The position numbers and the translations under genes are program-made. Below, one piece after another: positions 9,412 through 30,204 of a stretch of DNA of 39,040 bases (positions are counted from its first letter, which is position 1; each line of letters begins with the position of its first letter). This stretch comes from a virus, in the IMG/VR virus record IMGVR_UViG_3300031707_000062, positions 1-39,040 of that record. One strand, given 5' to 3'. Below the pieces are notes generated by a model. It had not been told where the DNA came from. It did no database searches and saw only the letters and a list, made by a program, of their open reading frames with translations.

Positions 9412-9442
9412 ACTCATAAATTCGGTTTAGGTAAAACATAAT
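9412..9442 (+). promoter_or_regulatory. Late promoter for portal gene
   Basis: The octamer ACTCATAA (9412-9419) is followed after 17 bp by CATAAT (9437-9442); six bases later comes the portal ATG (9449). The predicted start coincides with the start codon, so a leaderless mRNA is implied. There is no SD before this ATG. Confidence 0.75.
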
Positions 9443-9448
9443 TAAAAT

Positions 9449-11449
9449 ATGGAAAAACAAAAAGCTCCAACTTCCGAAAGCGAAGTGATGTCTCAGCAAA
9501 ACGCGGTTACCAATACAAAGACAAAAAGAGCCGAAAGAATAGCCCTTCTTAAAAGCCGTCTTTCAATTGCAAAATTGTTTTGTAAAAAGCCTCATGCCGC
9601 CTGGAAAGCTTGGACTGATGAATACAATATTGAGGATTTTGGCGATACGGAGGTAGTTCGGGATAAAGTAAGAATCGGTTATGTCTTCCGAAAGGCCGAG
9701 AGTGATATGCCGGCAATTTTCGACGACAAGCCGGATATATTTATTGAAGGCAGAAGCGCTCCTGTCAAAGATATTGCCCCGGTTATTTATGGCCTCAATG
9801 ATTATCTATGGGATATACAAAACCTTGAAGATAAGATTGATGACGTAGGACTTTACTTCATTGTTCTCGGAATGGGAATCGTCACCTCTCCCTGGGTAAC
9901 AAAGACCAAGAAAGTTCCCCAAACGGAAATAGACCCGGAAACCGGCAAAGAAGTGACAACCTATTATGACTTTCCGATATTTGATAGCCCCAACGCCGAA
10001 GCCGAAAATCCTTTCAAGATTTATTTCTCTCCGGAAACAAAGTTTGCCCCAATTATGGATTCCGAGCATTGTCCTTACTATTTCAAGGAAAAGACTCTTT
10101 CTCCGGAAGAAATTAAGGCCAAATGGAATAAAAAAGTAAGGTCTTCGGAGACAATGAATCTTGAAGATGGAGGACCTAATGTAAATATCGATCTTGCCGA
10201 AGATAAAACAGTTGTTAAAGAGGACGTAAAAAGAAACTGTGTATATGAATATTGGGGAACGCTTCCGGAAGACAAGGCGCCATCCGGCAAAGACTCAAAC
10301 GGAAATACATTCGGGCCGTGGCAGTACGATAAGGAATATCATGTTGAGATGACCAACTCGCAGGAGCTCTTCATTGAAGAGTGTCCTTACGACCACAAAC
10401 CCCTCTTTATTATCGGAAACTACGGATTTGCTAATAAATTCTGGAAATTTGGCGATACGAAACATTTGATGCCTTTGGTTCAGGAATTCCAGCAATATCG
10501 CTCCCACCTTCTTGAGTATGCCAGGAAAATGACTGACCCTAAGCCTTTGATTCCGGCGGAGTCGGATGTTGACGAGGATGCTTTTTCGGATACAAAAATT
10601 GGTCGCCCGGTCAAATATGCCGGGGAACGTCCGCCTACCTATCTTTCTCCGGGAACGATGGGTAAGGAAGTTGAAGAAGGAATAGGCAATGTCCGGCAGG
10701 ATCTTGAAAAAACTTCCGGCTCTTTTGATTTAAGCGGCGGCGCCAGCCAATCGACAGTTAAGACTCCGCGCGGAATTTCCGTTTATGCCGAAGCCGCAGA
10801 CCGCAATATTTCTAGAAAGAGAAAGAAAGTTTCTAAATTAATCCGAGAATTGACACTCTTCCAGTTTAAACAGGTCGCCCAAATGTGGACAGCAGAAGAT
10901 AATAAGACTATTCCGGTTAAGGCCGATGGTGTTCCTCAAGCTTTGGGTGTAACCGAAGATGTTTTGAAGGTTATCGGCGGAATAGGTCAGATGTATACGA
11001 TTAATATTGAGGTAGAAACTCTTTCGGTTAATCGCGTACAGCAAAAAAGAGACGCCCTGGATCTTTGGGACCTTGCCCAAGGTCATCCGGAAGTATTTAA
11101 TTTGGTTGAACTTGCAAAAGACCTCTTGCAGAACGGATATGGCAAGAGAAACGCTGACCGTTATCTTACAACTGAAGAGCAAAGAGCAAAGATGGCTGCT
11201 AGTGCCGCAGATACTAAACCTAAAGTTAGCGTTCAAATCAAGGCTGACGCAGCAACGCCGGTGGGGGATAGTCTTCTTGTTAAAGAAGGACTTTTACCGC
11301 CTTCAGCGGCCAATGATGTTACGGGGGGCGCCGCTGCAGTGATGACAGACCCCAATGCTATGCCTAAAGAGCTACCGGCTACGCCTCCGCAATCGATTCC
11401 GCCTGAATTGCAAGCGACAATGACTGGTCCGGCCCCCGCCGGGCAATAA
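9449..11449 (+). CDS. Portal protein
   Basis: A 666-residue protein placed after the terminase genes and before scaffold and capsid genes, the canonical portal position. The long size is usual for short-tailed phages. Typical segments include YGLNDYLWDIQNLEDKIDD near the N-terminus, the stem-like HLMPLVQEFQQYRSHLLEYA, then LSPGTMGKEVEEGIGNVRQD and a helical crown region (ISRKRKKVSKLIRELTLFQF). The last 80 residues are Pro/Ala-rich and probably disordered. Portals form a dodecameric ring through which DNA enters and leaves. The family call rests on segment patterns and synteny. It is probably translated from a leaderless mRNA. Confidence 0.8.
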   Translation: MEKQKAPTSESEVMSQQNAVTNTKTKRAERIALLKSRLSIAKLFCKKPHAAWKAWTDEYNIEDFGDTEVVRDKVRIGYVFRKAESDMPAIFDDKPDIFIEGRSAPVKDIAPVIYGLNDYLWDIQNLEDKIDDVGLYFIVLGMGIVTSPWVTKTKKVPQTEIDPETGKEVTTYYDFPIFDSPNAEAENPFKIYFSPETKFAPIMDSEHCPYYFKEKTLSPEEIKAKWNKKVRSSETMNLEDGGPNVNIDLAEDKTVVKEDVKRNCVYEYWGTLPEDKAPSGKDSNGNTFGPWQYDKEYHVEMTNSQELFIEECPYDHKPLFIIGNYGFANKFWKFGDTKHLMPLVQEFQQYRSHLLEYARKMTDPKPLIPAESDVDEDAFSDTKIGRPVKYAGERPPTYLSPGTMGKEVEEGIGNVRQDLEKTSGSFDLSGGASQSTVKTPRGISVYAEAADRNISRKRKKVSKLIRELTLFQFKQVAQMWTAEDNKTIPVKADGVPQALGVTEDVLKVIGGIGQMYTINIEVETLSVNRVQQKRDALDLWDLAQGHPEVFNLVELAKDLLQNGYGKRNADRYLTTEEQRAKMAASAADTKPKVSVQIKADAATPVGDSLLVKEGLLPPSAANDVTGGAAAVMTDPNAMPKELPATPPQSIPPELQATMTGPAPAGQ

Positions 11450-11450
11450 T

Positions 11451-11864
11451 ATGCAAATACCATCTCCAAACGAGGGGAAAAAACCACAAGCTTATCGTGG
11501 AAAACAAGCCCTCTATTTTGACAGAAGCCACGAAGAGGTTGTAACCGAATACGTGCCGGTTGATAAACGCAATCCTTCTGCCGGAATTCGGCCGGAAACA
11601 AAAGTAGTTACCGTTCCTGACAATCCGGAAATAGTTGATTTAGAAACCGGCCAATCAAACACTAAATATTGGAAACCGGAAATGGTTTTAAATCCCGAAG
11701 GCTGCAAACATCATTTTGTGCTTACCAATGCCGCAAAGCGGGAAGTCGAATGTACAAAATGTAATCTTCCGACGAGTTTTACCGTTCCCGGGTCTTATAG
11801 AGAAGAAAAAGGTCGATATTTCTTTATTTACCACAAAAAGGAATACGAAATCTTCAGCGAGTGA
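11451..11864 (+). CDS. Putative zinc-ribbon protein, 137 aa
   Basis: The ATG begins one base after the portal stop, so it is coupled to portal translation. The first half is hydrophilic and extended (Pro-rich). The second half has GCKHHFVLTNAAKREVECTKC, a Cys/His...CxxC arrangement expected to bind zinc, followed by aromatic strands (GRYFFIYHKKEYEIF). I do not recognise the family; a minor head protein is plausible from position. Confidence 0.65.
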   Translation: MQIPSPNEGKKPQAYRGKQALYFDRSHEEVVTEYVPVDKRNPSAGIRPETKVVTVPDNPEIVDLETGQSNTKYWKPEMVLNPEGCKHHFVLTNAAKREVECTKCNLPTSFTVPGSYREEKGRYFFIYHKKEYEIFSE

Positions 11865-11883
11865 TTATTAGTTTTTTCAACTT

Positions 11884-11914
11884 ACTCATAACTTCAAAAA
11901 TATAGCCCCATAAT
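11884..11914 (+). promoter_or_regulatory. Late promoter for scaffold/capsid genes
   Basis: ACTCATAA (11884-11891), 17 bp, CATAAT (11909-11914). The predicted start near 11921 leaves a leader of about 53 bases ending in a very strong SD (AAAGGAGGTGAAG). Unlike most members of this family, this promoter feeds an SD-led gene, fitting high expression of head genes. Confidence 0.75.
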
Positions 11915-11973
11915 TTTAATTGCGAACCTATCTGGAACAATCCATTAGGACTCTAGAAAGGAGGTGAAGATAA

Positions 11974-12831
11974 ATGACTGATGAAATTACAGCTCCGGCT
12001 GGCGATACTCCAGCGGCTCCGGCCGCAAGTACAACTCCAGCAGAAGAAGGTAGTCAAACGACTGGTCAAGGCGGTGCGGGAGAGGAAACAGAAGTTACCC
12101 CTCCTGCAACAGTAGCAGAAGGCAGCCAACCAGCCACGGGAGAACAAGAAGAGGAAACTTTTTTTGACCCCAACCAAGTGCCTGAAGCATTGAAACCAGC
12201 GTACAAGCAAATGCAAGCTGCTTTTACCAAGAAAACGCAAGGAATTGCGCAGGTAAAAGCCGACGCAGAAGCATACGCGAAGTACAAGCAATACGCTCCA
12301 ATTCTGGAGGAGATGCTTAAAGGTCCGACGAATCAACCTGCGACACCTGAATTAAAGGCGTTGGAGGACAGGATGCGTGCGGAAGGTTATAGCGAGGATG
12401 CAATTAATTTAGCTAAGTTGACGGGAGGAGTCTTGCTGAACAGCATGAATCAGAAGCAGGAAGTCTCCAGGATTCAAGGCGGAATTAATGAAGCGGCAAA
12501 AGTAGATCCTCGTTTAAACGACCCTAGTTTGGTGTATCAAACCGATACAGGTGAAAGCGTTACGTTTGGGTTAATCGTCGAGAACTTAGTTCTGGCCGAC
12601 CCCAAATGGCAAGTAGATCCGGTAGCGGCAACTAAGCGAGCAATCGCAAGAGTAGATGCACTTATAGGGAAAGCTAAGACACAAGGCAAGGAAGAACTAT
12701 CTAACTCTGCAACTCAGAGGGCAAGAAAATTTGCGCCCAACGTGTCATCTCCCCAATCAACGGTTAGCGATGAGCAACCGAAGACCATAAAAGAAGCGGC
12801 AGCGCAAGCTAAAAAACAACTAGGAATCTAA
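11974..12831 (+). CDS. Capsid scaffold (assembly) protein
   Basis: A 285-residue protein directly before the major capsid gene. The first 65 residues are Ala/Pro/Glu/Thr-rich and acidic, clearly disordered. Helical segments follow (PEALKPAYKQMQAAFTKKTQ, ADAEAYAKYKQYAPILEEML), and the C-terminus is basic (KEAAAQAKKQLGI), the end that usually contacts the capsid protein. This composition and position are characteristic of podovirus scaffolds. SD GGAGGTGA lies upstream. A protease fusion is not seen. Confidence 0.75.
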   Translation: MTDEITAPAGDTPAAPAASTTPAEEGSQTTGQGGAGEETEVTPPATVAEGSQPATGEQEEETFFDPNQVPEALKPAYKQMQAAFTKKTQGIAQVKADAEAYAKYKQYAPILEEMLKGPTNQPATPELKALEDRMRAEGYSEDAINLAKLTGGVLLNSMNQKQEVSRIQGGINEAAKVDPRLNDPSLVYQTDTGESVTFGLIVENLVLADPKWQVDPVAATKRAIARVDALIGKAKTQGKEELSNSATQRARKFAPNVSSPQSTVSDEQPKTIKEAAAQAKKQLGI

Positions 12832-12879
12832 ATATCGTTACGAAACACATTTAGATAAATAGGAGGAGGTGAATATTTT

Positions 12880-13821
12880 ATGGCTGATGCAAATATCGGG
12901 TTGTTACTTTCTACAACCTTAAAAAATTATAGAAAGACTTTAACGGACAACATCCACAAGTCTAATGCGGTGTTTTACCAACTGAAAAAGGCTGGTTACA
13001 TCAAAGAAGAGGATGGTGGTGAAAGAATCGTTGAACCGTTAATGTATGGAAAGAACACGACAGCTGCTTCTTATAGCGGTTATGATTTGCTGGATGTAAC
13101 CCCTCAAGAAGGTATTGACTCAGCAGAATTTAACTGGAAACAGTATTCTGCCGCAATTACCATTGATGGTAAGACTGAAAGGCAAAACGCTGGCCAAAAT
13201 AAGATCATTTCAGTTTTGGAGGCTAAAACCCGCCAGGCAGAAATGTCTCTCACAGAACAGCTTTCTACTGGACTCTTCTCAGATGGTACAGGCAATAGTT
13301 CCAAAGACCTAACAGGTCTTGAGGCTATGGTTTTGGCGTCTGGAACGTACGGTGGTATTAATTCTGCTGTCTATACATGGTGGCAGGCTTATGTGGAATC
13401 AACTTCAACGGCGCTTACTCTCGCAATGATGCGTATAGCTTTCAATACCGCCTCCGTAGGTGGTAAAGATACTCCCTCTTTGGTCGTTATGACCCAAGCC
13501 CTCTACGAAAAATATGAAGGTCTCTTTACCGGGACTATCAATATGTTCGCGGGTGGAACAAAAGAGTTGGCTGATGGAGGGTTTCAGACTTTGGAATTCA
13601 AAGGAATTCCGGTGGTTTGGGACGAACTATGTCCATCTGGGACGGTTTATTTCCTTAATAAAAACCACATGACTCTTACGGTCCACAGTGATGCGAATTT
13701 CGAAACAACCGATTTCGTTAAACCTGAGAACCAAGATGCTCGTGTTGCGCAAATTCTCTTCATGGGTAATTTGACCTGCAACAGGAGAAAGAGCTTTGGA
13801 AAGTTGACCGCGAAGACTTAA
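12880..13821 (+). CDS. Major capsid protein
   Basis: A 313-residue protein, the usual size for an HK97-fold capsid subunit without a delta domain. It follows the scaffold gene and has the strongest SD in the genome (AGGAGGAGGTGA). Segments expected in this fold are visible: an N-terminal arm (LLSTTLKNYRKTLTDNIHKS), an E-loop-like region (YDLLDVTPQEGIDSAEFNWK), a spine helix (SVLEAKTRQAEMSLTEQL) and P/A-domain strands near the end (IPVVWDELCPSGTVYFLN). A weak terminator hairpin overlaps the stop codon, which would let capsid mRNA outnumber downstream mRNA. Confidence 0.85.
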   Translation: MADANIGLLLSTTLKNYRKTLTDNIHKSNAVFYQLKKAGYIKEEDGGERIVEPLMYGKNTTAASYSGYDLLDVTPQEGIDSAEFNWKQYSAAITIDGKTERQNAGQNKIISVLEAKTRQAEMSLTEQLSTGLFSDGTGNSSKDLTGLEAMVLASGTYGGINSAVYTWWQAYVESTSTALTLAMMRIAFNTASVGGKDTPSLVVMTQALYEKYEGLFTGTINMFAGGTKELADGGFQTLEFKGIPVVWDELCPSGTVYFLNKNHMTLTVHSDANFETTDFVKPENQDARVAQILFMGNLTCNRRKSFGKLTAKT

Positions 13822-13832
13822 GGAGTCTTTTT
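13813..13832 (+). terminator. Weak intrinsic terminator at capsid gene end
   Basis: AAGACT (13813-13818) pairs with AGTCTT (13824-13829) around a five-base loop, followed by further T residues up to 13832. The stem overlaps the capsid stop codon. It is probably partial, since the next virion gene has no visible promoter of its own. Confidence 0.6.
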
Positions 13833-14005
13833 GGTCCGTGATAGCGGTAGCGTTAGTAGTCGGGAGGGGTATTCTCTCCAGCGGCGATAAAGGTCGTTTA
13901 TAGTGGCTACCCGCCAGTGTTAGTACCTTTCAACTCAACAGAGCAGAAATGCTTGGTAGTGAAAGAAACCGACCCCATAAGGGGCGTGGTAACAAAGAAA
14001 GGGGG
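13833..14005 (+). ncRNA. Structured RNA between capsid and decoration genes
   Basis: No gene is supported in this 173-base stretch. GCGGTAGC (13844-13851) pairs with GCTACC-C-GC (13906-13914, one bulge) and encloses GGAG/CTCC (13863-13879), giving a branched domain. CTTTCA (13927-13932) pairs with TGAAAG (13960-13965) around an AGCA-GAAA-TGCT tetraloop hairpin (13942-13953). CCCC-ATAA-GGGG (13973-13984) is closed by outer ACC/GGT. The next gene's SD follows directly. It could be a 5' leader that regulates the next gene, an mRNA-stability element or a packaging-type RNA; no known family is recognised. Confidence 0.55.
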
Positions 14006-14017
14006 TGAATATTTAAT

Positions 14018-14449
14018 ATGTTATTTTCAAGATTACAGCGTGCTCTACCTGAAAAGGTATTCACGATAGTTTCAAATATACAGGGTGCGACCATTACAAC
14101 CGGTCTTCCTGTTAATTTGGCAGTGGGTGCAAGCAATGACGGTATTTCGGCTCAAATCGCCGGTGCCGCAGGTTTATACCCCGGATTTATCGGTGTGGCG
14201 TCGAAAGATATAGCTGCAAATGATTATGGATTGGTTCAAATCGCAGGATTTGTTAATTCTGTCTATCTATCAAATGTGGGTAGCTCAATCACGATTACGG
14301 CCGGCGATCCGTTAGTTCCGGCTCCGGCAGGATTCTTCTCTGCTGCTCCAACATATGCGAACTCTGGTTTTAGATGGCTTTTTGCATCTAACGTACCGGT
14401 TGCAGTTTCGGCTGCTAGCTATGCGTCCGGATTATTGAAAATGATCTAA
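14018..14449 (+). CDS. Putative capsid decoration protein
   Basis: A 143-residue protein with SD AAAGGGGGTGAA. It is rich in Gly, Ala, Ser and Val with alternating hydrophobic strands (ATITTGLPVNLAVGASNDG, YGLVQIAGFVNSVYLSNV, SITITAGDPLVPAPAG), the look of a small beta-barrel capsid cement or head-decoration protein. Placement directly after the capsid gene and before a strong terminator supports an abundant head protein. The assignment is by composition and synteny only. Confidence 0.6.
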   Translation: MLFSRLQRALPEKVFTIVSNIQGATITTGLPVNLAVGASNDGISAQIAGAAGLYPGFIGVASKDIAANDYGLVQIAGFVNSVYLSNVGSSITITAGDPLVPAPAGFFSAAPTYANSGFRWLFASNVPVAVSAASYASGLLKMI

Positions 14450-14474
14450 TCAAAAAGATTGATTAAGTCAGAAG

Positions 14475-14495
14475 ACCCGCGCAAGCGGGTTTTTT
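14475..14495 (+). terminator. Rho-independent terminator of the head operon
   Basis: ACCCGC (14475-14480), a GCAA tetraloop and GCGGGT (14485-14490) form a six-bp GC-rich stem followed by TTTTTT. It ends the capsid transcription unit. A late-type promoter begins 16 bases later. Confidence 0.93.
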
Positions 14496-14510
14496 GATGG
14501 TTGGAGACTT

Positions 14511-14541
14511 GCTCATAATTGTCAAAAGTGAATGTTATATT
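14511..14541 (+). promoter_or_regulatory. Late promoter after the head-operon terminator
   Basis: GCTCATAA (14511-14518, one mismatch at the first base), 17 bp, TATATT (14536-14541). The predicted start is near 14548, leaving a 20-base leader with AAAAGGAAA before the ATG at 14569. Its place directly behind a terminator makes a promoter functionally necessary. Confidence 0.72.
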
Positions 14542-14568
14542 GGGTTTAATAGGACGAAAAAGGAAAAT

Positions 14569-14832
14569 ATGGAACCAAAAGAAGTCTTGTACGAATCTTC
14601 AGACAAACAAATTGTCCCCTTTTTATTGACTCAACCTGACGTGGAGCTTGCCGGGTCTCGCCTGTCGGACAAAAGAATCCTCTTCTTTCTTTTTAGACCA
14701 TTCGACAAATGTGTGAAGTTGGTCAACGATTTTATGAGCAGAAAGGCCCCACTAGTTCAGCCCAAGGACTTATTGGATGCGGTAGAGACTTTCCGGGACA
14801 GAATTTTCGAAATTAAAAAAGGAAATGTTTGA
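14569..14832 (+). CDS. Hypothetical protein, 87 aa
   Basis: The ATG at 14569 is used because earlier in-frame starts (14494) lie within the terminator and upstream of the promoter. The protein is hydrophilic and begins MEPKEVLYESSDKQIVPFLL; its helical end is DLLDAVETFRDRIFEIKKG. It overlaps the next gene by eight bases. No family is recognised; the pair with 14825 may be virion assembly or regulatory proteins. Confidence 0.6.
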   Translation: MEPKEVLYESSDKQIVPFLLTQPDVELAGSRLSDKRILFFLFRPFDKCVKLVNDFMSRKAPLVQPKDLLDAVETFRDRIFEIKKGNV

Positions 14833-14995
14833 TAGCTTGGCCAGATGTCAAAAGGACGGCAAAATAGTCGATTTAAACGACCTTCCGGCTTTGCTTAAAA
14901 AGCATCTTGGGCATGGTTTTGAGCAGCCGGCAAGGCTCAATTTCATTGAAAGGTTTATATGGACCAGAAGACTAAAAAAGCAAAAGAAAAAATAA
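14825..14995 (+). CDS. Hypothetical basic protein, 56 aa
   Basis: It starts inside the previous gene (AAAAAAGGAA serves as SD) and runs 37 bases into the glycosyltransferase gene, in a different frame. The sequence KIVDLNDLPALLKKHLGHGFE is followed by a strongly basic tail. It could be a small adaptor; function is unknown. Double overlap and codon composition support it moderately. Confidence 0.5.
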   Translation: MFDSLARCQKDGKIVDLNDLPALLKKHLGHGFEQPARLNFIERFIWTRRLKKQKKK

Positions 14996-15738
14996 AGGAA
15001 AAAGTATTGAAGGTTGCGATGTCTATTCCTTCCGAAGGTCATACCTTACCAGAAAGCTACGACAACCATATAATGATGTCTTTCCATTTGGGCCGTCTTC
15101 AGGAGCTTTGGAATCACGAAAAGAGAAATCCGCGTTATGAATTCTACTGGCATACTTCCGGGCGTCTTTTGACCGCAATGGCCAGAGAGAGATTAATAAA
15201 CGAGGCTAAAAAGGCGGGCGTTGACTATATTTTAATGTATGACGATGACATGATTCTTCCTCTTGATATGGTTGAGTGTATGCTTCAGGACGTAGAACTA
15301 CATCCGGAAATTGATATTTTGGCTCCCCTGGCTTTTATGCGCAATCCGCCCCATTACGCAGTCATGTATACGGTTATTGAAGGGTTTGACCCGACTCGCG
15401 GACCTTACTATATCAATCAATTTGTCAAAAACTACCCCAGGAACTCCCTCGTCGAGTGCGACGCGGTCGGGTTTGGTGCGGTTTTAATCAAAATGAGCAT
15501 TATTGAGAAGATGAAGCCTCCCTATTGTTTTTCAACAACGGGCTCCGGAGAAGATGTTTTCTTTTGCCAGAAAGCCAAAAAGGAGGCTAGGGCGCGAATA
15601 TTCATGGATACCCGGATTAAATTGGGCCATCTGGCGCAGCCCCAGATAGTTGACGAGGAATATTTTGATAATTGGAGGCGAAAGAACAAGCATTTTATTC
15701 CAAAGGTTCCAGGAAAATATAAAACAACCGAAAAATGA
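14959..15738 (+). CDS. Glycosyltransferase, GT-A fold
   Basis: A 259-residue protein. After a basic start, the core has the GT-A sequence DYILMYDDDMILP with D95-D96-D97 as the nucleotide-sugar/metal-binding motif, then EIDILAPLAFMRN and CDAVGFGAVLIKMSIIEKM, typical of phage and capsule family-2-like enzymes. GEDVFFCQKAKKEA supplies the downstream acidic residues expected at the catalytic base. It is the first of an island of sugar and methyl transferases placed between head and tail genes. Likely role: modification of virion proteins or host surface sugars; the substrate is unknown. It overlaps the next gene by four bases. Confidence 0.8.
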   Translation: MDQKTKKAKEKIKEKVLKVAMSIPSEGHTLPESYDNHIMMSFHLGRLQELWNHEKRNPRYEFYWHTSGRLLTAMARERLINEAKKAGVDYILMYDDDMILPLDMVECMLQDVELHPEIDILAPLAFMRNPPHYAVMYTVIEGFDPTRGPYYINQFVKNYPRNSLVECDAVGFGAVLIKMSIIEKMKPPYCFSTTGSGEDVFFCQKAKKEARARIFMDTRIKLGHLAQPQIVDEEYFDNWRRKNKHFIPKVPGKYKTTEK

Positions 15739-16991
15739 AACAAAAGGAAATTGTCTCAATAATAATTCCTACTTGGAATAATCCGGAGTATCTGCGGGGG
15801 GCCATTGCCTCAATTATTAGAAATGGCACAAGCGAGGGGCTTTTTCATATTTACATAGTTAACAATGGTGCGGCCAATAGCCTAGATTGGATTGCGGACT
15901 CACCTTATATAACGAAAATTCACATGTCCTACAATGCTGGCTGGCAAGGCGGAATCGTTGCTGGTCTTAAAAAGGCAAAGGGGGAGTTTGTTTGTTTCTT
16001 TAATGACGATGCTTATATTCCTCCTGCTTCCCGGCTTTGGCTTCAAACGCTTTTACAACAATTCCGGGACCCGAAAGTTGCTGCGGTCGGTCCTTCCTCA
16101 AACGTAGTTATGGGATACCAAAATATCTTTGTTGATGTTCCGTTCCATGTTTACGAAGCTAGGTTTTTAATTGGATTTTGTGTCATTGTAAGACGTAAAT
16201 ATTTCGAGGAGATTGGCGGAATGGATCTTGATTTACCGGGAGGGGACGATTTTGACTGGTCGATAAGATTCCGGGACAAAGGCTACAAATTGATTGCTAA
16301 TAGAGACGTTTTTATCTTTCATCACGGTTTTAAAACAGGAGAAAAGCTGCACGGAACTTCGGATAAAGTCGGGGGTTGGAATTCATACGAATATAAGGAA
16401 CAAGTTGATTTTGCCTTAATTAAAAAGCATGGATTTAGGAAGTGGTGGGAGACAATTAAAGGAGCTTACGAGTTGCCAAAAGCAGTTAAATCTCCATTTC
16501 CTACCGATTCTGAAGGAAAAATAATTAGAAAATTCCTTAACAGGAAGGAAAAAATTCTTGATTTAGGGTGCGGGGGCAATAAAACCGTTCCGGAGGCAAT
16601 CGGAGTGGATATTGTTTTGGTTGATGAATTTATTGAGACACTCCGACCGGGAACAAAATCTCAGGCAAATGTAAGGGCAGATGTTAGTAAGCTGCTTCCT
16701 TTCGAAAAAGGCTCTATTGATACGATTGTCGCCCGTCATATTTTGGAACATATGATAGACCCGCTTGAGACCTTAACTAACTGGAAAACTGTGTTAAAAC
16801 CCGGCGGAAAATTAATTATTGCAGTCCCTAACCAAAGTATAATTTCTTCAATTCCCATGAGTGTTGAACATGTTCACGCCTTTACTCCGGATTCCCTGAA
16901 GCGACTTTTAACACTTATCGGTTTTGATGTTTTAAAACAGATGGATTCCAAAAATGGAGTTTCTTTTGTTATGGTTGCAAAAATAAAATGA
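15735..16991 (+). CDS. Bifunctional glycosyltransferase GT2 - SAM methyltransferase
   Basis: A 418-residue fusion. Residues 1-240 are a family-2 GT: SIIIPTWNN near the start, FFNDDAYIPP with N90-D91-D92 at the DXD position, and DLPGGDDFDWSIRFRDKGY (about 166-184) as the acceptor/catalytic-base region. Residues about 255-418 are a class I methyltransferase: ILDLGCGGNKTVPEAIGVDI (motif I from about 274), IVARHILEHMIDP (motif IV region) and LKPGGKLIIAVPN. The two activities probably act in sequence, adding a sugar and then methylating it. It is translationally coupled to genes on both sides by ATGA overlaps. Confidence 0.88.
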   Translation: MKQKEIVSIIIPTWNNPEYLRGAIASIIRNGTSEGLFHIYIVNNGAANSLDWIADSPYITKIHMSYNAGWQGGIVAGLKKAKGEFVCFFNDDAYIPPASRLWLQTLLQQFRDPKVAAVGPSSNVVMGYQNIFVDVPFHVYEARFLIGFCVIVRRKYFEEIGGMDLDLPGGDDFDWSIRFRDKGYKLIANRDVFIFHHGFKTGEKLHGTSDKVGGWNSYEYKEQVDFALIKKHGFRKWWETIKGAYELPKAVKSPFPTDSEGKIIRKFLNRKEKILDLGCGGNKTVPEAIGVDIVLVDEFIETLRPGTKSQANVRADVSKLLPFEKGSIDTIVARHILEHMIDPLETLTNWKTVLKPGGKLIIAVPNQSIISSIPMSVEHVHAFTPDSLKRLLTLIGFDVLKQMDSKNGVSFVMVAKIK

Positions 16992-17230
16992 GTAAAAGTA
17001 TCAGAACATTTAAGTGCGGCTGCGTAATTATCCGGACAACGGCAAATCGAACCTTTGTCAAAGAAACTAGGTATGCGCCGGCAATAATTATACCAGTTAG
17101 TGTTTGGAAACTATTGCGTCGTTGTAATTCTCACAAAATCAATTTTGCCAAAAAGACCGACAAAATGATTCGGAGGTCTGAAAGAAAACGGGGTAAGGGT
17201 TATACGAAGAAAGGACACAGAGATGGTTGA
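16988..17230 (+). CDS. Hypothetical basic protein, 80 aa
   Basis: It starts in an ATGA overlap with the GT-methyltransferase gene. It is very basic, with CGCVIIRTT near the N-terminus, a middle AIIIPVSVWKLLRRC and a Lys/Arg-rich tail (SERKRGKGYTKKGH). It may bind nucleic acid or a charged polymer; no family is recognised. Confidence 0.55.
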   Translation: MSKSIRTFKCGCVIIRTTANRTFVKETRYAPAIIIPVSVWKLLRRCNSHKINFAKKTDKMIRRSERKRGKGYTKKGHRDG

Positions 17231-17947: not shown

Positions 17948-17955
17948 AAAATAAG

Positions 17956-18483: not shown

Positions 18484-18490
18484 TCAGATA

Positions 18491-20137: not shown

Positions 20138-20143
20138 GGATTT

Positions 20144-20323: not shown

Positions 20324-20325
20324 AT

Positions 20326-21523: not shown

Positions 21524-21530
21524 AGACAAG

Positions 21531-21559: not shown

Positions 21560-21571
21560 TTTAGCAAAAAC

Positions 21572-22669: not shown

Positions 22670-22680
22670 TTCATCTGCTC

Positions 22681-22711
22681 ACTTATAAGTTCCTCTTAAC
22701 TATTCCACAAT
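22681..22711 (+). promoter_or_regulatory. Late promoter for the polyvalent protein gene
   Basis: The perfect palindrome ACTTATAAGT (22681-22690) contains the octamer; 17 bp after it is CACAAT (22706-22711), then six bases to the ATG at 22718. No SD is present, so a leaderless mRNA is implied. Confidence 0.75.
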
Positions 22712-22717
22712 TGGGAT

Positions 22718-25700
22718 ATGGACCTCGGAACCAAAATTCGTAATTTTCTTACGCAAGCGGGTCGAACTGTTTCTTCTGTCGGACAATCTATAGGAAAAGC
22801 AGCTGCCCCCTTATTCGCTCCGCGTGCTCCACAACCGGTTAGCACTCCTGCCCCAGGATTCGGGCAAACGTTAGCCAGCCGGATTAGCAACTACTTTAAT
22901 CCCACCTCCAATCGCGGGCAAAATTTCTGGTCCACACCTTTTATTCAAAAATTGGGCCAAGTCCAATCTTTCATAGAAAGCCCGAAGCAATTAATTATAA
23001 TTCCGGAAATCAAGCCTCCCGAAAATGCGCCTTTTCTTTCTAAAGCCGGGGCATTTTTGGGAAACATACCCATAGGAATAACCAACACAATCAGCCAGGG
23101 AGTTACGGCTCCAATAATGGATATTGGACAGGCGATAGGTAGACCGTTAAGCGGAAGGCAATATGACTATAATGAATTCAAAAACATAGGCAGATTGGGA
23201 CTTCAATTTGGAGGACTGCTCAATAAACAAGCAGCAGAAACACAAGGAACCAAATATGGATTTAAACAAGTTGCCGGAAATGTTGCCGAAACTGCAATGC
23301 CTATAGTTACTGCGGCCACATTGAAAGCTTCCCCACAGATAGCGGGAGATGTTGTTCAAAAGGCAATGAAAGAAACTTTTCTTCAAGCCATTAAGAGTGG
23401 AGCAATGAGTGGAGTAAAGTATGGCGGGGGATTTGGTCTTTTGTCTGGCCTCACAACAGGCAGGGATATTCAAAATGATAATGAGTATCTTGCCAATCTT
23501 GGTATAAATACTGGCGCTGGTGCATTGTTTGGTGCCGGATTGGGAGCAGTCACGGCCGGAGCAGGATACGGATTTGGGGCAATTAAGAATTTCCTAACAA
23601 ATGCCCTAGTAAAGAAACATCCCGAAATGTCGTCTACCACAGCAGGAACTTGGATAGATGGGTTCTTTAGACACGAAGATGGGCGATTTGCAAGCTTCGT
23701 ACAAGGGAAAACGAAAATTGAGAATAAAGTTAGAACAAGATTGGGAATGAAATCCAACGAGCCAGTTTATTACGGAGACTTGAGAGAGTCATTGGGACTT
23801 CCCAGAAATGGAGATTATGAAATTCCACAAATTAAACTAGGACTTTCAACTAGAGCTCTAACCAAAGCCGAGCATGAAGCAAGCCTAAAATTGAACAATT
23901 TAAAAACTCCTTTTGATGCGAATTCATATATTCAGGAAATGACTACAAATCAGAAAACCGCAAAAATAGCCGGCAATCCGGAATTAACTCTCAAGGGAAA
24001 GGTGGGCGCATTTATGAGCGATTTTAAGCAAAAATTTGTTGACACAAACGCTCCAATTGAAGATGCACTTTCGTATGCCGAAAAACAAGGAAATTATAAG
24101 GTTTTGCCGACACAAGACGTTAGGCTTCAAATTGATAGGGTTTTAAGAAGCAAGCAAATTGCCGGACAATTTATTAAAGATAACGGACTTTACGACACAA
24201 TTAAAAGCGCTCCGGACATTAACGCTTTGGATCAATACTTAATTGCCAAACATGCCGTCGAGAATGAAGCGGCGGGGTTTGCCACAGGGCGCAATTTGGC
24301 AAAAGATAAACAATTAGTAACCGAATTGGCGCCGACCTATGAGCCTCTGGCGCAAACGGTTAATGGATATAGTAGAAAGCTACTTCAGTATGCGGTTGAT
24401 AACGGACTGGTATCTCAAGCCGTCGCGGACAATCTCGTAAAGAAATACCCGAATTACGTGCCTCTTCAAAGGGTATTTAGCGAACTAGAAGGCAATCAGA
24501 ACATTATTGGAGGAAGAAAGGGAGTAGCCTCGTTATCGAAACAGGGGGCGGTAGTTGCCTTGAAAGGTTCCGAACGCGAAATTGCAAATCCGACAGAATC
24601 TCTTCTTGTTAAAACCATGGACATTATGAACCAAGGAGAAAGGAATGTCGCAGCAAAACAACTTGCTTCGTATAGAAATTTGCCCGGATTTCAAGGATTA
24701 ATTCGGGAATTGGGACCAAAAGAATCGGCGCCACACACATTCTCCTACTTGGATAATGGTGTCAAAAAGACATTTGAAACTACCCCGGAGCTTGAAGCCG
24801 CGGCAAAATCTCTTACTCCCCCAGATTTTGGACTTTTAGCCAAGATATTCTCGATTCCGACTAGAGTTCTTCAGATGGGTGCAACAGCCTTAAACATTCC
24901 TTTTACGCTTACGAACTTGGCGAAAGACCAAATGAGTGCCTTTATAAATACAAATCAGGTCGCCAAAACCTCGCTTATTAATCCGGTTAATTTTGTGAGA
25001 GCTCTTTATGAGGCAGTTGGACACGGGAAGCTTTATCAGGAAACAATCAGAAACGCAGGAATGGGAACCTCTTTCGATATAGCAAGAAGCGCTCCGGAGA
25101 CAACAATTGCGAGTATAAGGTCAAATCGCAATGTTGGTTTAAAGATTGCATATTTAGTCAAGAATCCGGAACAGCTTTTAAGGGCAGTTGAAAACGTAGT
25201 CGGACGAACAGAAGAATTGACGCGTATTCAGCAATATAAAGGAACTTATGATGCTTTACTAGCTAAAGGTCGAACTCCGGAAGACGCAACACTTCTTGCT
25301 TCACAAGCAGCTAGGGAAAATACCGCCAACTTTGCCAGAAGCGGACAATTCGGAAAAGTTTTAAATAAGGTCATTCCCTTCTTTAATGCCGGAATTCAGG
25401 GAGCAAGGCAACTTGACCGAAGTTTCCAAAATAACCCCGCCGGAACTGCATTAAAAATGGCTATCGGAGTTTTCTTGCCAACGGCAGCCGTGACCGCATG
25501 GAATCTGTCAGATCCGGCAAGAAAAACGGTCTATGAGGATATTTCTGAATTCGAAAAACAGAACAATATCGTTATTGTTCCTCCCAATCCGACGAAAGAT
25601 GCCAGAGGACAATGGAATGTAATAAAAATTCCTGTCTCTCAAGAAGTCGCGCCCCTACTTAGTCTTGTCAGAAGGCCAATTGAAGCTTCTGCCGGTCTTG

Positions 25701-27007
25701 ATCCTGTCAGGTTTGGTGAAGTGGCGACAAGTTTAATTAATGCTACGACAAGCCAGGACGTATCAAGTTTGTCTAAAATAGAATCTACTTTTGTACCTCA
25801 GGCACTTAAACCTGGCCTCGAGACGATTACAAATAAAAACTTATTTACCGGAAAGGAAATAGTTCCTTCGGAAATGAGAAATCTCCCTCCGGAAGAACAA
25901 AAACAAAGCTATACTTCCCAGCTCGCTATTGATATTGGAAAAAGACTAAATACCTCTCCCCTTTTGGTTGAGAACTTTATTAAGACTTCCGCCGCCGGTG
26001 TAGGATCTCAACTAATTAATGCCTATGATGTAGCCGTCGGAAAAGGAGATAAGGCGGGTGGAGAAAACATTTTACAGGCCGTTCAGCGAAGATTTGGCAA
26101 GGCACAGGGCGGAGAAATTGTGGCAAAAGCAAATAAACTGGCCTCGAAAGGAATGGATAAACAGTCGACTATTGGTTACGACTATCTACACAAAGGAAAG
26201 ACTTACGATGAAAACGGACTCCCGGCACAAAGCGGGTCTTTACAAGACAGTATGACAAATGCTTCAGTAAGATTATCTAGCCCCGAAATATTGGCAAAGG
26301 AGGCGGCAATGGCCAGAGCTCAGGCAAGGACGAACGGAACGCCCATTAATCCACTTTACAATTTACCTGTCGACCAACAATTAACCGTTTTAAGAATAAC
26401 TTCTCTCCCCGTTAAAGACCCTGAGAAAAAGACTCTAACAAACGCAAATATTACGTGGCTTAAGCCTTATTGGGACCAACAGTCTCAATATATCAGCCAA
26501 ATGCAGGCTGCGGGAATTTTCAAGCCAAACACTCCGGTCGCTGGAGAACTTCAAAGACCGGTAGCAAGTCTCGAAATTCAGCAGGCCATGGACAGTAAAC
26601 AATGGAATTATCCCGGTGTCCAAGCATATCTTGATGCCTACACACTTTGGGCAAATCAGGAGCGGGCGAAACTTGGCCTGGGTCCGGCAAGTGGAGCCGG
26701 CGGAGGATCAAGTGGACCATTTAAACCTTACATGAATTTGGGATTTGGTCTAAAAGCTAATGCAAAAGGAAAATTGGCAAGTCCGGTGGGAAACTTTAAA
26801 AAGGCAATGGCGAAGCTCGGGAAACCCGCAAAAGTTCCAAAGCTGGCGAAGTTAAAATTGGCCGGATTACAACTTAAGATTCCTAAGGTCCCAAAGACTC
26901 TCTCGTACAAAATGCCCAAAGTAAAGAAAGGGATTTCAGCCAAAAAGGGACTTAAATTATCTCTTTTGAAACAAACCCCAATTTATAGGTCTCGATTAAT
27001 GGCGTAA
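22718..27007 (+). CDS. Large polyvalent virion protein with LPD38-like domain
   Basis: The largest gene: 1429 residues. The N-terminal 300 residues are Gly/Ala/Pro-rich with several amphipathic or weakly hydrophobic segments (GALFGAGLGAVTAGAGYGFGA). A region near residues 700-930, from IFSIPTRVLQMGATALNIPF through NLAKDQMSAF to LKMAIGVFLPTAAVTAWNL, is the pattern I associate with large polyvalent protein-associated domain 38. These giant proteins are packaged in virions and delivered with DNA. The last 110 residues are Lys/Pro/Leu repeats (KVPKLAKLKLAGLQLKIPK), probably a DNA- or membrane-binding tail. No catalytic motif is evident to me. Confidence 0.72.
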   Translation: MDLGTKIRNFLTQAGRTVSSVGQSIGKAAAPLFAPRAPQPVSTPAPGFGQTLASRISNYFNPTSNRGQNFWSTPFIQKLGQVQSFIESPKQLIIIPEIKPPENAPFLSKAGAFLGNIPIGITNTISQGVTAPIMDIGQAIGRPLSGRQYDYNEFKNIGRLGLQFGGLLNKQAAETQGTKYGFKQVAGNVAETAMPIVTAATLKASPQIAGDVVQKAMKETFLQAIKSGAMSGVKYGGGFGLLSGLTTGRDIQNDNEYLANLGINTGAGALFGAGLGAVTAGAGYGFGAIKNFLTNALVKKHPEMSSTTAGTWIDGFFRHEDGRFASFVQGKTKIENKVRTRLGMKSNEPVYYGDLRESLGLPRNGDYEIPQIKLGLSTRALTKAEHEASLKLNNLKTPFDANSYIQEMTTNQKTAKIAGNPELTLKGKVGAFMSDFKQKFVDTNAPIEDALSYAEKQGNYKVLPTQDVRLQIDRVLRSKQIAGQFIKDNGLYDTIKSAPDINALDQYLIAKHAVENEAAGFATGRNLAKDKQLVTELAPTYEPLAQTVNGYSRKLLQYAVDNGLVSQAVADNLVKKYPNYVPLQRVFSELEGNQNIIGGRKGVASLSKQGAVVALKGSEREIANPTESLLVKTMDIMNQGERNVAAKQLASYRNLPGFQGLIRELGPKESAPHTFSYLDNGVKKTFETTPELEAAAKSLTPPDFGLLAKIFSIPTRVLQMGATALNIPFTLTNLAKDQMSAFINTNQVAKTSLINPVNFVRALYEAVGHGKLYQETIRNAGMGTSFDIARSAPETTIASIRSNRNVGLKIAYLVKNPEQLLRAVENVVGRTEELTRIQQYKGTYDALLAKGRTPEDATLLASQAARENTANFARSGQFGKVLNKVIPFFNAGIQGARQLDRSFQNNPAGTALKMAIGVFLPTAAVTAWNLSDPARKTVYEDISEFEKQNNIVIVPPNPTKDARGQWNVIKIPVSQEVAPLLSLVRRPIEASAGLDPVRFGEVATSLINATTSQDVSSLSKIESTFVPQALKPGLETITNKNLFTGKEIVPSEMRNLPPEEQKQSYTSQLAIDIGKRLNTSPLLVENFIKTSAAGVGSQLINAYDVAVGKGDKAGGENILQAVQRRFGKAQGGEIVAKANKLASKGMDKQSTIGYDYLHKGKTYDENGLPAQSGSLQDSMTNASVRLSSPEILAKEAAMARAQARTNGTPINPLYNLPVDQQLTVLRITSLPVKDPEKKTLTNANITWLKPYWDQQSQYISQMQAAGIFKPNTPVAGELQRPVASLEIQQAMDSKQWNYPGVQAYLDAYTLWANQERAKLGLGPASGAGGGSSGPFKPYMNLGFGLKANAKGKLASPVGNFKKAMAKLGKPAKVPKLAKLKLAGLQLKIPKVPKTLSYKMPKVKKGISAKKGLKLSLLKQTPIYRSRLMA

Positions 27008-27010
27008 CTA

Positions 27011-27041
27011 ACTTATAAGTAGTCTCGTCTTCTTCCATAAT
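27011..27041 (+). promoter_or_regulatory. Late promoter for adaptor gene
   Basis: ACTTATAAGT (27011-27020, perfect palindrome) with the octamer 17 bp before CATAAT (27036-27041); seven bases then lead to the ATG at 27049. This is a one-base variation of the otherwise constant spacing to the start codon, while the spacing between boxes stays fixed. Confidence 0.76.
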
Positions 27042-27048
27042 TTAAAAA

Positions 27049-27714
27049 ATGGCCAATTTGCTTGTTTCCGATATTCAGACAATGCTGGCGATTCGCTTGG
27101 GAGAGTCCGCCGCTCCTGGGGACACGACCACAAAAGCGCAGAGGCTTAATTGGATAAATCGTGCCTATATGGATATTGCCAGAAAAAGGAACTGGTGGTG
27201 GCTGGAAACTACGGATACTTCGAATACAAATACGGGCTCGACTACTGGTTACTCCGAACCCGCGGATTGTAAAAAGATAATTGAGCTTCAAATAAGTGAC
27301 GTTTATTACGACGAGATTCCTTACGTAGACAACCGGATCTATAAAAACACTCTGGGTGTGGTTAGCCTACCAACCCTTAGAAGGTCGTACAAGTTTTACA
27401 GGTATGGAGGCAAATATTATCTTATTCCAACTGACGGGAACGATGCGGCAATTCACTATATAAAATATTACAAAAGAATAACCAATTTGACCAACGACGG
27501 GGATATATTTTTGATTCCGGAAGAATACGGAGAAGTGATTGCAGCTTACGCAGAAGCGCGCTATTGGATGAGCATTACCCAACAGGCCAAGGCTTCGGCT
27601 CCTTTCCAAGAATATAACCAGATAGTTGTGGACATGATGCGGGAACATGGGCGTCGGAGTTCTGGTTCCGCAGGCTTTGCGGTCAGGGAGCCTGAGGATT
27701 CGTTTGGTAGATAA
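27049..27714 (+). CDS. Head-tail adaptor protein
   Basis: A 221-residue protein placed before the tail hub gene. AQRLNWINRAYMDIARKRNW is the signature N-terminal helix of podovirus adaptor/gatekeeper proteins; then YYDEIPYVDNRIYKN, a strand-rich centre (YYLIPTDGNDAAIHYIKYYK) and IPEEYGEVIAAYAEARYWM followed by a helix. These features match the tail-tubular-A/gp6-like adaptor group that joins portal to tail. The start falls in a leaderless position behind a late promoter. Confidence 0.72.
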   Translation: MANLLVSDIQTMLAIRLGESAAPGDTTTKAQRLNWINRAYMDIARKRNWWWLETTDTSNTNTGSTTGYSEPADCKKIIELQISDVYYDEIPYVDNRIYKNTLGVVSLPTLRRSYKFYRYGGKYYLIPTDGNDAAIHYIKYYKRITNLTNDGDIFLIPEEYGEVIAAYAEARYWMSITQQAKASAPFQEYNQIVVDMMREHGRRSSGSAGFAVREPEDSFGR

Positions 27715-27724
27715 ACAAAATGAA

Positions 27725-28240
27725 ATGGCAAAATTTAATAAAGGACATAAAATTTGGCTTGGCCGCAAACACACTCCCGAGTCTAGGCTAAAAATGAGTC
27801 GTGCGAAGAAGGGTAAAAAATTAACAACAGAACAGTTAAAAAATCATTCAAAAGGACTAATTGGAAAAGAAAGACCACCTCTTTCGTTAGAATGGCGTAA
27901 GAAAATAGGCATAAAGAGTAAGGGAAGAATTGCTGGAAATAAAAACCCTAATTGGAAAGGTGGAATTTATAAATATAACGACGCTCTTAGAAAGACCCTC
28001 GAATACAAACTTTGGCGAAAGGCTGTCTTTGAAAAAGATAACTATACGTGTCAGATATGTGGAAAGCCTAGTAATGGGGATATTGAGGCAGACCATATAA
28101 AACCTTTTTCTCTTTATCCAGAACTCCGATTTGCAATAAACAACGGCCGCACACTCTGTAAATCTTGCCACAAAAAGTATGGATGGAATTATTTTCGGGA
28201 AATGAATCCAAAAGGAAAGGAGATATATGCCAACAATTAA
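27725..28240 (+). CDS. HNH homing endonuclease with NUMOD3-like repeats
   Basis: A 171-residue protein from ATG 27725; earlier in-frame starts lie inside the adaptor gene. The N-terminal part has three NUMOD3-like DNA-binding segments (LGRKHTPESRLKMSRAKKGK and two relatives). The C-terminal HNH zinc-ribbon nuclease has CQICGKPS, EADHIKPFS, NNGRTLCKSCHKKY. It overlaps the tail hub start by 14 bases and contributes that gene's SD. A free-standing mobile HNH gene inserted between adaptor and hub genes is the simplest reading. Confidence 0.9.
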   Translation: MAKFNKGHKIWLGRKHTPESRLKMSRAKKGKKLTTEQLKNHSKGLIGKERPPLSLEWRKKIGIKSKGRIAGNKNPNWKGGIYKYNDALRKTLEYKLWRKAVFEKDNYTCQICGKPSNGDIEADHIKPFSLYPELRFAINNGRTLCKSCHKKYGWNYFREMNPKGKEIYANN

Positions 28241-30170
28241 TGTTCCAGGTAAAGACGTAGCTGAACAGACAAAATACGTATACGGATTCCAACAGGGTCT
28301 CAATAAATTACAAGATGAGAGCTTAATATCGGATCATGAGTTGTCAGATGCTTTAAACAATATCATTGTTGTTGATGGTCTTCAAAAACGTCTTGGTAGC
28401 CTCAATTTTGGGTCTTCAAGTGGAAGTAGAATTTATGGCGCGGCTTCTTTTTATACATCAGCAGCGGCAAATAATCGCTGGATGCTTCGCGAAGGCGGAA
28501 CTTCGCTTATGTACTACACAACCCCCGGAAAGGTTCCTACGGCCATTTCAGGAGCCACAATGACGGCCGGAAAAAGAACAGAATTCGCAGAAGCCCGAGA
28601 CACAATGTATGTGGAAAATGGTACAGACCCCCTTACAAAAATCATTGTTTCAGGAGTTGTCCCGACAGCTGTTGTCTTTACGGCTTTATCCACCCCAACC
28701 AACTTGACGGTTACTCCTACAGGAACCGCCGGATCGACACATTATTCTTATAGGATTACTGCTTTTAGTGCCACGGGAGAAACCTTAGCCTGTACTTCTG
28801 TTCCAACTACAACCGGAAATGCCACTCTTACTGCTACCAATTACAATGCTCTTGCCTGGACCGCAGTCTCAAACGCAGTCGGATACAACATTTATGGGCG
28901 CAAAGCGACAACCGATAACGGCATTGGTGAAACAAAGATGGCGACGATTACGACAAATGCCTATAACGACACCGGAGTTGATACCCCTTCAACAATAATT
29001 ACTCCGCCTGAAGGAAACAGCTCCGGAGGACAGGTCGGAAGCATGGTTTTTTATGCTATGAGCCGTTTATTTGTCGCCGGAGATCCAGGAAATCCCTCAA
29101 GGCTTTATTATTCTGGAGTTGGAACTTCAATTGATGACTTTTCGACTGCTTATTCCGGAGGCTGGGTTGACGTTTCGAAAAACGATGGAGATTCAATTAC
29201 GGGAATTTTCTTCTTCCAAAATGCCTTTATTGTTTGGAAACACCATTCTATTTGGAAATTTACGTTCACTACGGCAGGACTTCCCCAGCTTGAATTAATT
29301 ACCAACGAAATCGGCTGCGAGTCTTTCCGCACAATCAGAATGGTTAATAACGACATCTGGTTTGTGGCCAACAAGGATGGTCGCGCCGTTGTGTTTTCTC
29401 TCGGAAATGTTCAGCAATATTTCAATGCTTTAAGAACTACGGAGCAATCTTTAAAGATTAGCGGAGGGTCCCTTCTCGATTCGACAAACTTGGCTTATCT
29501 GGCAAATTCCTGCGCATTTTATTTTAGAAATTTGTATCTTCTTGCGGTTCCCAATTCGGGCTCGACCACAAACAATCGGATTTATGCTTTTGACTCCCGT
29601 TTTAGTGCTTGGGCGGGATATTGGGAAGGCATGAATGTAAATTCATTCTTTACCTATACGGACGTCAACAATCAAACCGAACTTTATTACGCCGATGAAA
29701 CAAGTGGATATGTTGTGCAAATGTTTACCGGAACGAATGATAACGGGACCGCAATTCATTGGAGAATCCAGACAAAAAGCTTCATGCTTAATTATTTTGA
29801 CCAGTACAAAATATTCCGGAATCCCATTCTTTGGTTCAAAGATGTGGCAAACGGGACCATAACCGGATATTTCGTGCTTGATGGTCTTTTCTCTTCCGGA
29901 ACTTTCAATATCACAGCGCTTGTATCGGGAATTGGAGCAGGATTTGACAAAATGGGAACATTCAAAGCAGGAGATTCCTTGGGAGCTTCAACAACTTCAT
30001 TAAAAAGCGATCAACCGATGGAAATTATTACGACAAAACAAGGAAGGTCTCTCAAGATGGAGCTAGACGACACAAACGCCTCTTCATCTTTTAAATTCCT
30101 GGGGTTTTCCTTCCGATGGTTACTTCTGGCCGGGAAACCCCTGCCGAGTGAAAACAGGATACGGCTGTAA
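28227..30170 (+). CDS. Tail hub / nozzle protein (beta-propeller type)
   Basis: A 647-residue protein with SD GGAAAGGAGAT. The N-terminus (FQQGLNKLQDESLISDHELS DALN-type segment) resembles the start of podovirus tail tube/nozzle proteins. Residues about 155-260 look like a fibronectin-III insertion (TPTNLTVTPTGTAGSTHYSY, then NAVGYNIYGRKA). The rest has repeated short strands ending in W or F, with MSRLFVAGDPGNPSRLYYSG and NNRIYAFDSRFSAWAGYW, the blade pattern of propeller-type hubs. It forms the distal tail through which DNA exits; the family call is by pattern and synteny. Confidence 0.7.
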   Translation: MPTINVPGKDVAEQTKYVYGFQQGLNKLQDESLISDHELSDALNNIIVVDGLQKRLGSLNFGSSSGSRIYGAASFYTSAAANNRWMLREGGTSLMYYTTPGKVPTAISGATMTAGKRTEFAEARDTMYVENGTDPLTKIIVSGVVPTAVVFTALSTPTNLTVTPTGTAGSTHYSYRITAFSATGETLACTSVPTTTGNATLTATNYNALAWTAVSNAVGYNIYGRKATTDNGIGETKMATITTNAYNDTGVDTPSTIITPPEGNSSGGQVGSMVFYAMSRLFVAGDPGNPSRLYYSGVGTSIDDFSTAYSGGWVDVSKNDGDSITGIFFFQNAFIVWKHHSIWKFTFTTAGLPQLELITNEIGCESFRTIRMVNNDIWFVANKDGRAVVFSLGNVQQYFNALRTTEQSLKISGGSLLDSTNLAYLANSCAFYFRNLYLLAVPNSGSTTNNRIYAFDSRFSAWAGYWEGMNVNSFFTYTDVNNQTELYYADETSGYVVQMFTGTNDNGTAIHWRIQTKSFMLNYFDQYKIFRNPILWFKDVANGTITGYFVLDGLFSSGTFNITALVSGIGAGFDKMGTFKAGDSLGASTTSLKSDQPMEIITTKQGRSLKMELDDTNASSSFKFLGFSFRWLLLAGKPLPSENRIRL

Positions 30171-30173
30171 CTT

Positions 30174-30204
30174 ACTTATAAGTAAAGACTAATTCTGACA
30201 ACAT
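30174..30204 (+). promoter_or_regulatory. Late promoter for fibre genes
   Basis: ACTTATAAGT (30174-30183), 17 bp after the octamer CAACAT (30199-30204), six bases, then ATG at 30211. The octamer-to-ATG distance is 37 bases as in three other members. The -10 box is the weakest of the family. Confidence 0.66.

Follow-up and report, generated by a model that had tools for sequence, protein, structure and literature searches.

Predicted late promoters with a fixed 17-bp spacer and a phage-specific −35 octamer in a clade of bacteriophages, and a sigma-region-4-like protein as their candidate reader

The DNA analyzed here (the window) is IMG/VR virus record IMGVR_UViG_3300031707_000062, positions 1 to 39,040, one strand, and the phage it represents is referred to as W. 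The window carries a family of predicted late promoters in which an octamer occupies the −35 position 17 bp before a −10-like hexamer. A fixed-spacing motif search in related phages showed that this geometry is kept before the same genes, with a different octamer in each phage. Judging from the sequence, the phage probably relies on the host RNA polymerase and has these sites as its late promoters, the octamer being read by the product of a small sigma-region-4-like gene adjoining the first site. The promoters, the candidate gene and its neighbor are listed below.

8606 to 9016, plus strand: gene for a 136-amino-acid (aa) protein directly upstream of the sigma-region-4-like gene; same place in relatives; no PHROG match
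9013 to 9402, plus strand: sigma-region-4-like gene, candidate octamer reader; 129 aa, TTG start; orthologs in nine other phages
9412 to 9442, plus strand: predicted late promoter; octamer ACTCATAA, N17, CATAAT; ATG of a portal-like gene at 9449
11884 to 11914, plus strand: predicted late promoter with leader; ACTCATAA, N17, CATAAT; gene at 11974
14511 to 14541, plus strand: predicted late promoter with leader; GCTCATAA, N17, TATATT; gene at 14569; a site at 31088 of relative N is similarly placed
20107 to 20137, plus strand: predicted late promoter; ACTTATAA, N17, TAGACT; ATG at 20144
20991 to 21021, plus strand: probable eighth late promoter; ACTCATAA, N17, TAAACT; gene 21572 follows further downstream, past a minus-strand moron
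22681 to 22711, plus strand: predicted late promoter; ACTTATAAGT, CACAAT; ATG of a gene for 1429 aa at 22718
27011 to 27041, plus strand: predicted late promoter; ACTTATAAGT, CATAAT; ATG of a tail gene at 27049
30174 to 30204, plus strand: predicted late promoter; ACTTATAAGT, CAACAT; ATG at 30211

An earlier note on this DNA had reported seven octamer and hexamer pairs (9412, 11884, 14511, 20107, 22681, 27011 and 30174), and all of them were found where it placed them. The hexamer starts 25 bases past the octamer start in all seven, leaving a 17-bp spacer, and the hexamers are those reported (CATAAT three times, TATATT, TAGACT, CACAAT and CAACAT). The proposed octamer ACTYATAA holds at six of the seven sites and fails at 14511, which reads GCTCATAA; T at position 10 is common to all seven. 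The octamer does lie within a palindrome at three sites (22681, 27011 and 30174), each a perfect 10-bp copy of ACTTATAAGT. The eighth site tentatively placed at 6748 reads ACTTATTA with TATGCT and was rejected as a misfit; a better eighth site, also on the plus strand, is located at 20991 (ACTCATAAAT, TAAACT, the same 17-bp spacing). At the seven sites and at 20991 alike, the −35 position reads TYATAA instead of TTGACA, and the −10 has A at position 2 and T at position 6 behind the 17-bp spacer. The remark that some sites follow a terminator was not borne out: terminator-like sites occurred at shuffle level (15 versus 15.6 in 8900–23000 and 18 versus 17.5 in 23000–39040), and no late site had one flagged immediately ahead of it.

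The spaced pair was compared with 1000 dinucleotide shuffles of the window. The element [AG]CTYATAANT alone occurs 8 times on the plus strand and 5 times on the minus strand (shuffle mean 0.73). When it is followed by N15-NANNNT the counts are 8 and 0 (shuffle mean 0.05, maximum 2), and when an ATG is also present 6 to 8 nt further on they are 5 and 0 (shuffle mean 0.002). Not every octamer has the geometry: ACTYATAA itself is found 9 times on the plus strand and 4 times on the minus strand, and the copies at 19272 and 22499 have no fitting −10 or lie within genes. Because the pattern was fitted to the sites themselves, the relatives provide a stronger test than the shuffles.

A close clade was collected by searches with capsid, tail and portal proteins. 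Its members are G001, G002, G003, G004, G014, G015, G016, N (L061 and L058), M (L059), L066, L067/L068 and L070. In the eight members with a listed value, the capsid is 63–76% identical to that of the window; in more distant contigs the figure is 36–51%. The contigs of G001, G004 and G014 are fragmentary and miss the region of the sigma-region-4-like gene, so that its absence there is uninformative. Three contigs came from a genome scan, with the bin labels Nitrososphaeraceae (N), Melioribacter (M) and Gottesmanbacteria; we think that the first two are mis-binned phage contigs, and a capsid profile search of 379 genomes of the phylum of the Gottesmanbacteria-bin genome gave a match in that one genome only. 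Among known phages, no match was obtained by megablast with window 9000–31700 or by tblastn with the W and M sigma-region-4-like proteins (E 0.01). A scan of viral contigs with the N protein, by a method that depends on exact short words, confirmed no relative.

The pattern [CT]ATAA-N(L)-NANNNT-N6-8-ATG was counted at 423 gene starts of 13 clade contigs with L from 8 to 30. L=17 gave 24 matches and no other length more than 3, whereas none of 290 starts in 10 distant contigs matched at L=17. In a preset-free 6-mer count at −42 to −25, the top 6-mers were CTTATA in W, CCTTAT in G001 and TCCTAT in G002; in G003 and G004 they did not exceed the distant contigs in strength.

The octamers themselves are private to the phages, for example TCTCATAA in N, TCCTATAT in G002, ATATATAA in L070 and a (C)AGGATAA-like sequence in G003. 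Among 35 sites that have ATAA or ATAT in the fixed position, octamer positions 1–4 differed by a mean of 0.28 mismatches within a phage (54 pairs) and of 2.40 mismatches between phages at orthologous genes (86 pairs), and none of 20000 permutations was as low as the within-phage value. One octamer per phage is the pattern expected of a phage-specific trans-acting reader. The own octamer followed by N17 and NANNNT was found on the plus and minus strands, respectively, 8/0 times in W, 5/0 in G001, 10/0 in G002, 6/0 in G003, 3/0 in G004, 4/0 in G014, 5/0 in G015 and 8/0 in N, in which the sites at 262 and 35580 are one sequence near both record ends. Foreign octamers gave 0 to 2 matches per strand. 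Exceptions were overlapping patterns (W's with G014, 4/0; G004 and G015 reciprocally, 3/0 each) and GGATAA from G003, a short sequence that scored 1/4 in the window. This diagonal arises partly by construction, since the octamers were chosen from previously seen sites; most leadered sites were not used in choosing. The palindrome is not kept in the relatives and was rejected as the recognition unit.

Leadered sites precede the ortholog of gene 11974 in G001 (1192), G002 (15863), G003 (6547), G004 (85) and G015 (6694); N carries this ortholog with no such site before it in the own-octamer scan, which did not include M and G016. Upstream of the ortholog of gene 21572, leadered sites occur in N (262), G014 (2267) and G001 (4605), and leaderless ones in G002 (10402) and G004 (9809). 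Window site 20991 overlaps the start codon of a minus-strand open reading frame (ORF), 20541–20996, where a chance match is possible. Because relatives have sites upstream of this ortholog, and because N, like W, has a minus-strand ORF between the site and the 21572-type gene, 20991 is likely a real promoter separated from its gene by a moron.

A property missed in the earlier note is the distance from the −10 to the gene. The gap between hexamer and ATG is 6, 6, 6, 7 and 6 nt at 9412, 20107, 22681, 27011 and 30174, respectively, whereas at 11884 and 14511 the gene ATG lies 59 and 27 nt on, behind a Shine-Dalgarno-like sequence. According to PMC3160421, leaderless bacterial genes are marked by TANNNT some 12 bp ahead of the start codon; the distance from −10 to start codon is 12–13 bp at five of the eight window sites, in agreement with this description. 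Phages 7-11 and phiEco32 start transcription some 6–9 nt past the −10 (PMC8948821). Because the hexamer ends 6–7 nt before the ATG, the predicted start falls on or beside it, and the mRNAs from these five sites should be leaderless, starting at or within 1–2 nt of the ATG. Leaderless transcripts alone are not new for phages, in which they have been called frequent (PMC5312081).

The candidate reader was characterized by profile and structure comparisons. A search of the six window frames with Sigma70_r4 at E up to 1 gave a sole match, at 9139–9234, inside the gene at 9013–9402 (E 6.7e-6, 21.7 bits; curated cut-off 24.1). With a hidden Markov model (HMM) built from ten orthologs, the gene was detected in 11 contigs, representing 10 distinct sequences; all other contigs scanned, the distant ones included, were negative. 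The proteins measure 78–129 aa and resemble region 4 only. PHROG sigma family 351 matches six of the seven members scanned, and sigma region 2 gave no match in seven members at E 0.1, so that reading of the −10 presumably falls to the host sigma factor. The structure model has a mean predicted local distance difference test score (pLDDT) of 68, with 74–88 across residues 31–90, and a fold search with it returned sigma factors nearly throughout among the 50 matches listed. One glutamine in the putative recognition helix is common to all ten proteins.

The location of the gene is equally constant. It precedes the portal gene with a 17-bp promoter in between in 10 of 10 distinct phages; in the window, 10 nt separate its end from the first late promoter, and the octamer lies within about 20 nt of its stop codon in eight of the ten, and 148 nt (L068) and 233 nt (L066) after it in the others. 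The suggestion in the earlier note that an alternative or phage-modified polymerase is involved thus gains support, at the level of sequence, from the geometry kept before orthologous virion genes and from the adjacent sigma-region-4-like gene. The product of 8606–9016 is a possible co-factor; as a sigma-region-2 partner it was rejected, since the alignment gave no sign of this and PHROG no match. A gene of contig L075 annotated as "DNA-directed RNA polymerase" was set aside as unlike sigma region 4 and missed by the HMM.

Several observations weigh against this protein as the reader. In the Pfam scan of seven members (L066, L067 and L070 were outside it), Sigma70_r4 scored above the cut-off in two (G015 and G016), was weaker in four, with 20.8 bits for the window protein, and did not match in G003; the best match of the M protein was HTH_23. 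The Foldseek values (E at least 0.03, Z at most 7.3) are in the range of a common arrangement. Octamer distance correlated weakly with that of the recognition helix (r 0.28, p 0.07); with the whole protein the correlation was higher (r 0.43, p 0.004), but the portal control also gave r 0.25 and p 0.03. The G016 promoter after the gene is not leaderless. In addition, N and G002 carry a second small sigma-region-4-like gene, which makes the assignment of the reader ambiguous there; the six-frame Sigma70_r4 search found no such second ORF past the integrase in the window.

N (L061) 14518 to 14670: second sigma-region-4-like ORF, 50 aa; above the Pfam cut-off; first rightward gene past the integrase
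G002 flipped 36399 to 36614 (L031 3387 to 3602, minus strand): second sigma-region-4-like ORF, 71 aa; weak; first rightward gene past the integrase

Other explanations differ in how they account for the octamer. The octamer might be bound by a different phage protein, an activator that dimerizes at ACTTATAAGT in some sites and recruits the sigma70 holoenzyme in the manner of MotA at T4 middle promoters. The three perfect 10-bp palindromes and the sigma70-like −10 hexamers would suit it, but the palindrome is lost in octamers of relatives such as TCCTATAT, GCTCATAA and GGATAA, and a phmmer comparison of 387 early-region ORFs from 11 sources (E <0.05) revealed no other clade-wide regulator; we regard this as unlikely. 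Slightly less likely still is that a host alternative sigma factor, for example of the extracytoplasmic function (ECF) type, reads the promoters and that the octamers vary with the hosts. The fixed 17-bp spacer and the two-part layout fit a sigma factor, and the contigs of these phages range in GC from 36.5% to 56%; this explanation does not account for the sigma-region-4-like gene that adjoins the first promoter in all 10 phages.

It is improbable that the sigma-region-4-like protein serves in packaging, or as another kind of DNA-binding protein, while something else reads the octamer. Its gene does sit between terminase and portal, and the M protein weakly matches terminase helix-turn-helix families, but sigma region 4 or sigma families are the best matches in most members, and visual inspection alone suggests a small terminase for a separate gene at 6203–6643, which matched nothing in Pfam or PHROG. 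As for chance pairs in A+T-rich intergenic DNA, general sigma70-type matches are indeed no commoner in the window than in shuffles (26 versus 25.3 and 21 versus 29.5); the 8/0 count against 0.05 and the 17-bp peak in the relatives speak the other way, and the relatives already refute this explanation, to which we give hardly any weight.

With the 9013–9402 protein as the reader, we infer promoter activity, start sites, late timing, binding and a swap of the −35 determinant from the observed sequences, spacing, synteny and domain match. Transcription from upstream would yield the terminase, the 136-aa neighbor and the sigma-region-4-like protein. This protein would join or replace domain 4 of the host sigma factor and bind the octamer, which stands in for the −35 hexamer at about −37 to −30, so that the holoenzyme would be re-targeted from TTGACA to the octamer while the −10 (A at 2, T at 6) would still be recognized by the host sigma factor. 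The re-targeted holoenzyme would then fire the virion operons, the first promoter being directly past the gene for the protein itself, and at five sites would produce the leaderless mRNAs. Among the phages, the protein would have drifted to different octamers, mostly with the ATAA core and the 17-bp spacer retained; such diversification contrasts with capsids that are still 63–76% identical to that of the window. A broader proposal, which we make only tentatively, is that a stand-alone, single-domain region 4 acts as an exchangeable −35 reader, substituting for domain 4 of a host holoenzyme that retains its domain 2 for the −10, and that this reader diversified together with its octamer between phages and is coupled to leaderless virion mRNAs.

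Host-type promoters were also surveyed. In 8900–39040 there is a single perfect one, given here as a contrast.

21531 to 21559, minus strand: contrast promoter, perfect TTGACA-N17-TATAAT; the ATG of a CAP-domain moron (21041–21523) follows after 7 nt

Because this promoter serves a moron, the usual −35 is available, yet unused at the late sites. G002 likewise has a perfect TTGACA-N17-TATAAT 7 nt before the ORF at 2310. Leaderless starts may thus be usual in these phages or their hosts, with the −35 distinguishing the late promoters. Looser host-type promoters (TTGACA with up to 2 and TATAAT with up to 1 mismatch, near an ATG) showed no 17-bp peak at 1004 clade ORF starts (4 at a spacer of 17, 4 at 23 and 5 at 25), so that leaderless host-type promoters rest on the two perfect examples. 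The moron belongs to a minus-strand gene pair (20541–21523) inserted in the late region, one gene with a CAP domain (PF00188). An ORF at 17956–18483 (minus strand), HNH-like by eye only, has TATAAT 7 nt before its ATG, and an HNH endonuclease gene (27647–28240, plus strand) lies between two tail genes.

Elsewhere in the window, a T4-type RNA ligase gene (2950–4047; phrog_562, E 2.2e-71) is a sign of defense against RNA cutting, and 14959–16991 holds two clade-conserved genes, one weakly glycosyltransferase-like and one weakly methyltransferase-like. Positions 38901–39040 repeat 1–140 (140 nt, one mismatch) inside a coding 12-bp tandem repeat, which is present at 60–246 and 38960–39038 with GAAW repeats. 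Given this repetition at its ends, the record may represent a whole circular genome that was opened within the repeat.

If the proposal is correct, the late-gene code of uncultured phages would become readable, the octamer being taken from the sequence and its reader being encoded beside it, and bacterial RNA polymerase would prove to be re-targetable by something as minimal as a region-4-only factor. The clade would offer ten natural pairs of protein and octamer (the G016 octamer is ambiguous) for studying and swapping −35 recognition. It would also predict a group of hosts that routinely translate abundant virion proteins from leaderless mRNAs.

Phage re-targeting of the host polymerase is a known kind of control; new here are the leaderless layout, the single octamer per phage in relatives and the specific candidate factor gene. 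In the open-license papers searched, no description of a region-4-only late factor of this kind was recognized. Among the closest known systems is that of gp47 of phage 7-11, of the phiEco32 group, in which the host core and a phage specificity factor containing region 4 use two-part promoters upstream of late genes, and specificity likewise shifts between related phages, phiEco32 using tAATGTAtA (PMC8948821). Unlike the candidate here, which resembles region 4 only and goes with a sigma70-like −10, gp47 is a whole sigma factor that recognizes GTAAtg-(16)-aCTA (PMC8948821). T4 AsiA/MotA (PMC7403470, PMC11598898) also substitutes a phage element for the −35 and retains the sigma70 −10, but two proteins are needed there, whereas the candidate here is a sigma-region-4-like protein. 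Ltr/RinA of Gram-positive phages (PMC13123087) are small proteins encoded directly upstream of the late promoter under their control, a position also seen here, where control by the protein is proposed. Ltr, however, acts via upstream repeats (−107 to −42 in phi13) and gives one long transcript (PMC13123087), whereas the present phages have one octamer at −35 and several promoters; among five of the eight window sites examined for an upstream repeat array, four had none and the fifth had one two-copy 10-nt repeat. Finally, Cluster O mycobacteriophages (PMC4351075) and TA-led genes (PMC3160421) offer a parallel for the predicted coincidence of +1 with the initial base of the start codon and for a −10 about 12 bp ahead. 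The Cluster O promoters are predicted to be of the SigA type (PMC4351075), whereas those described here would form a phage-specific class, leaderless before several virion genes.

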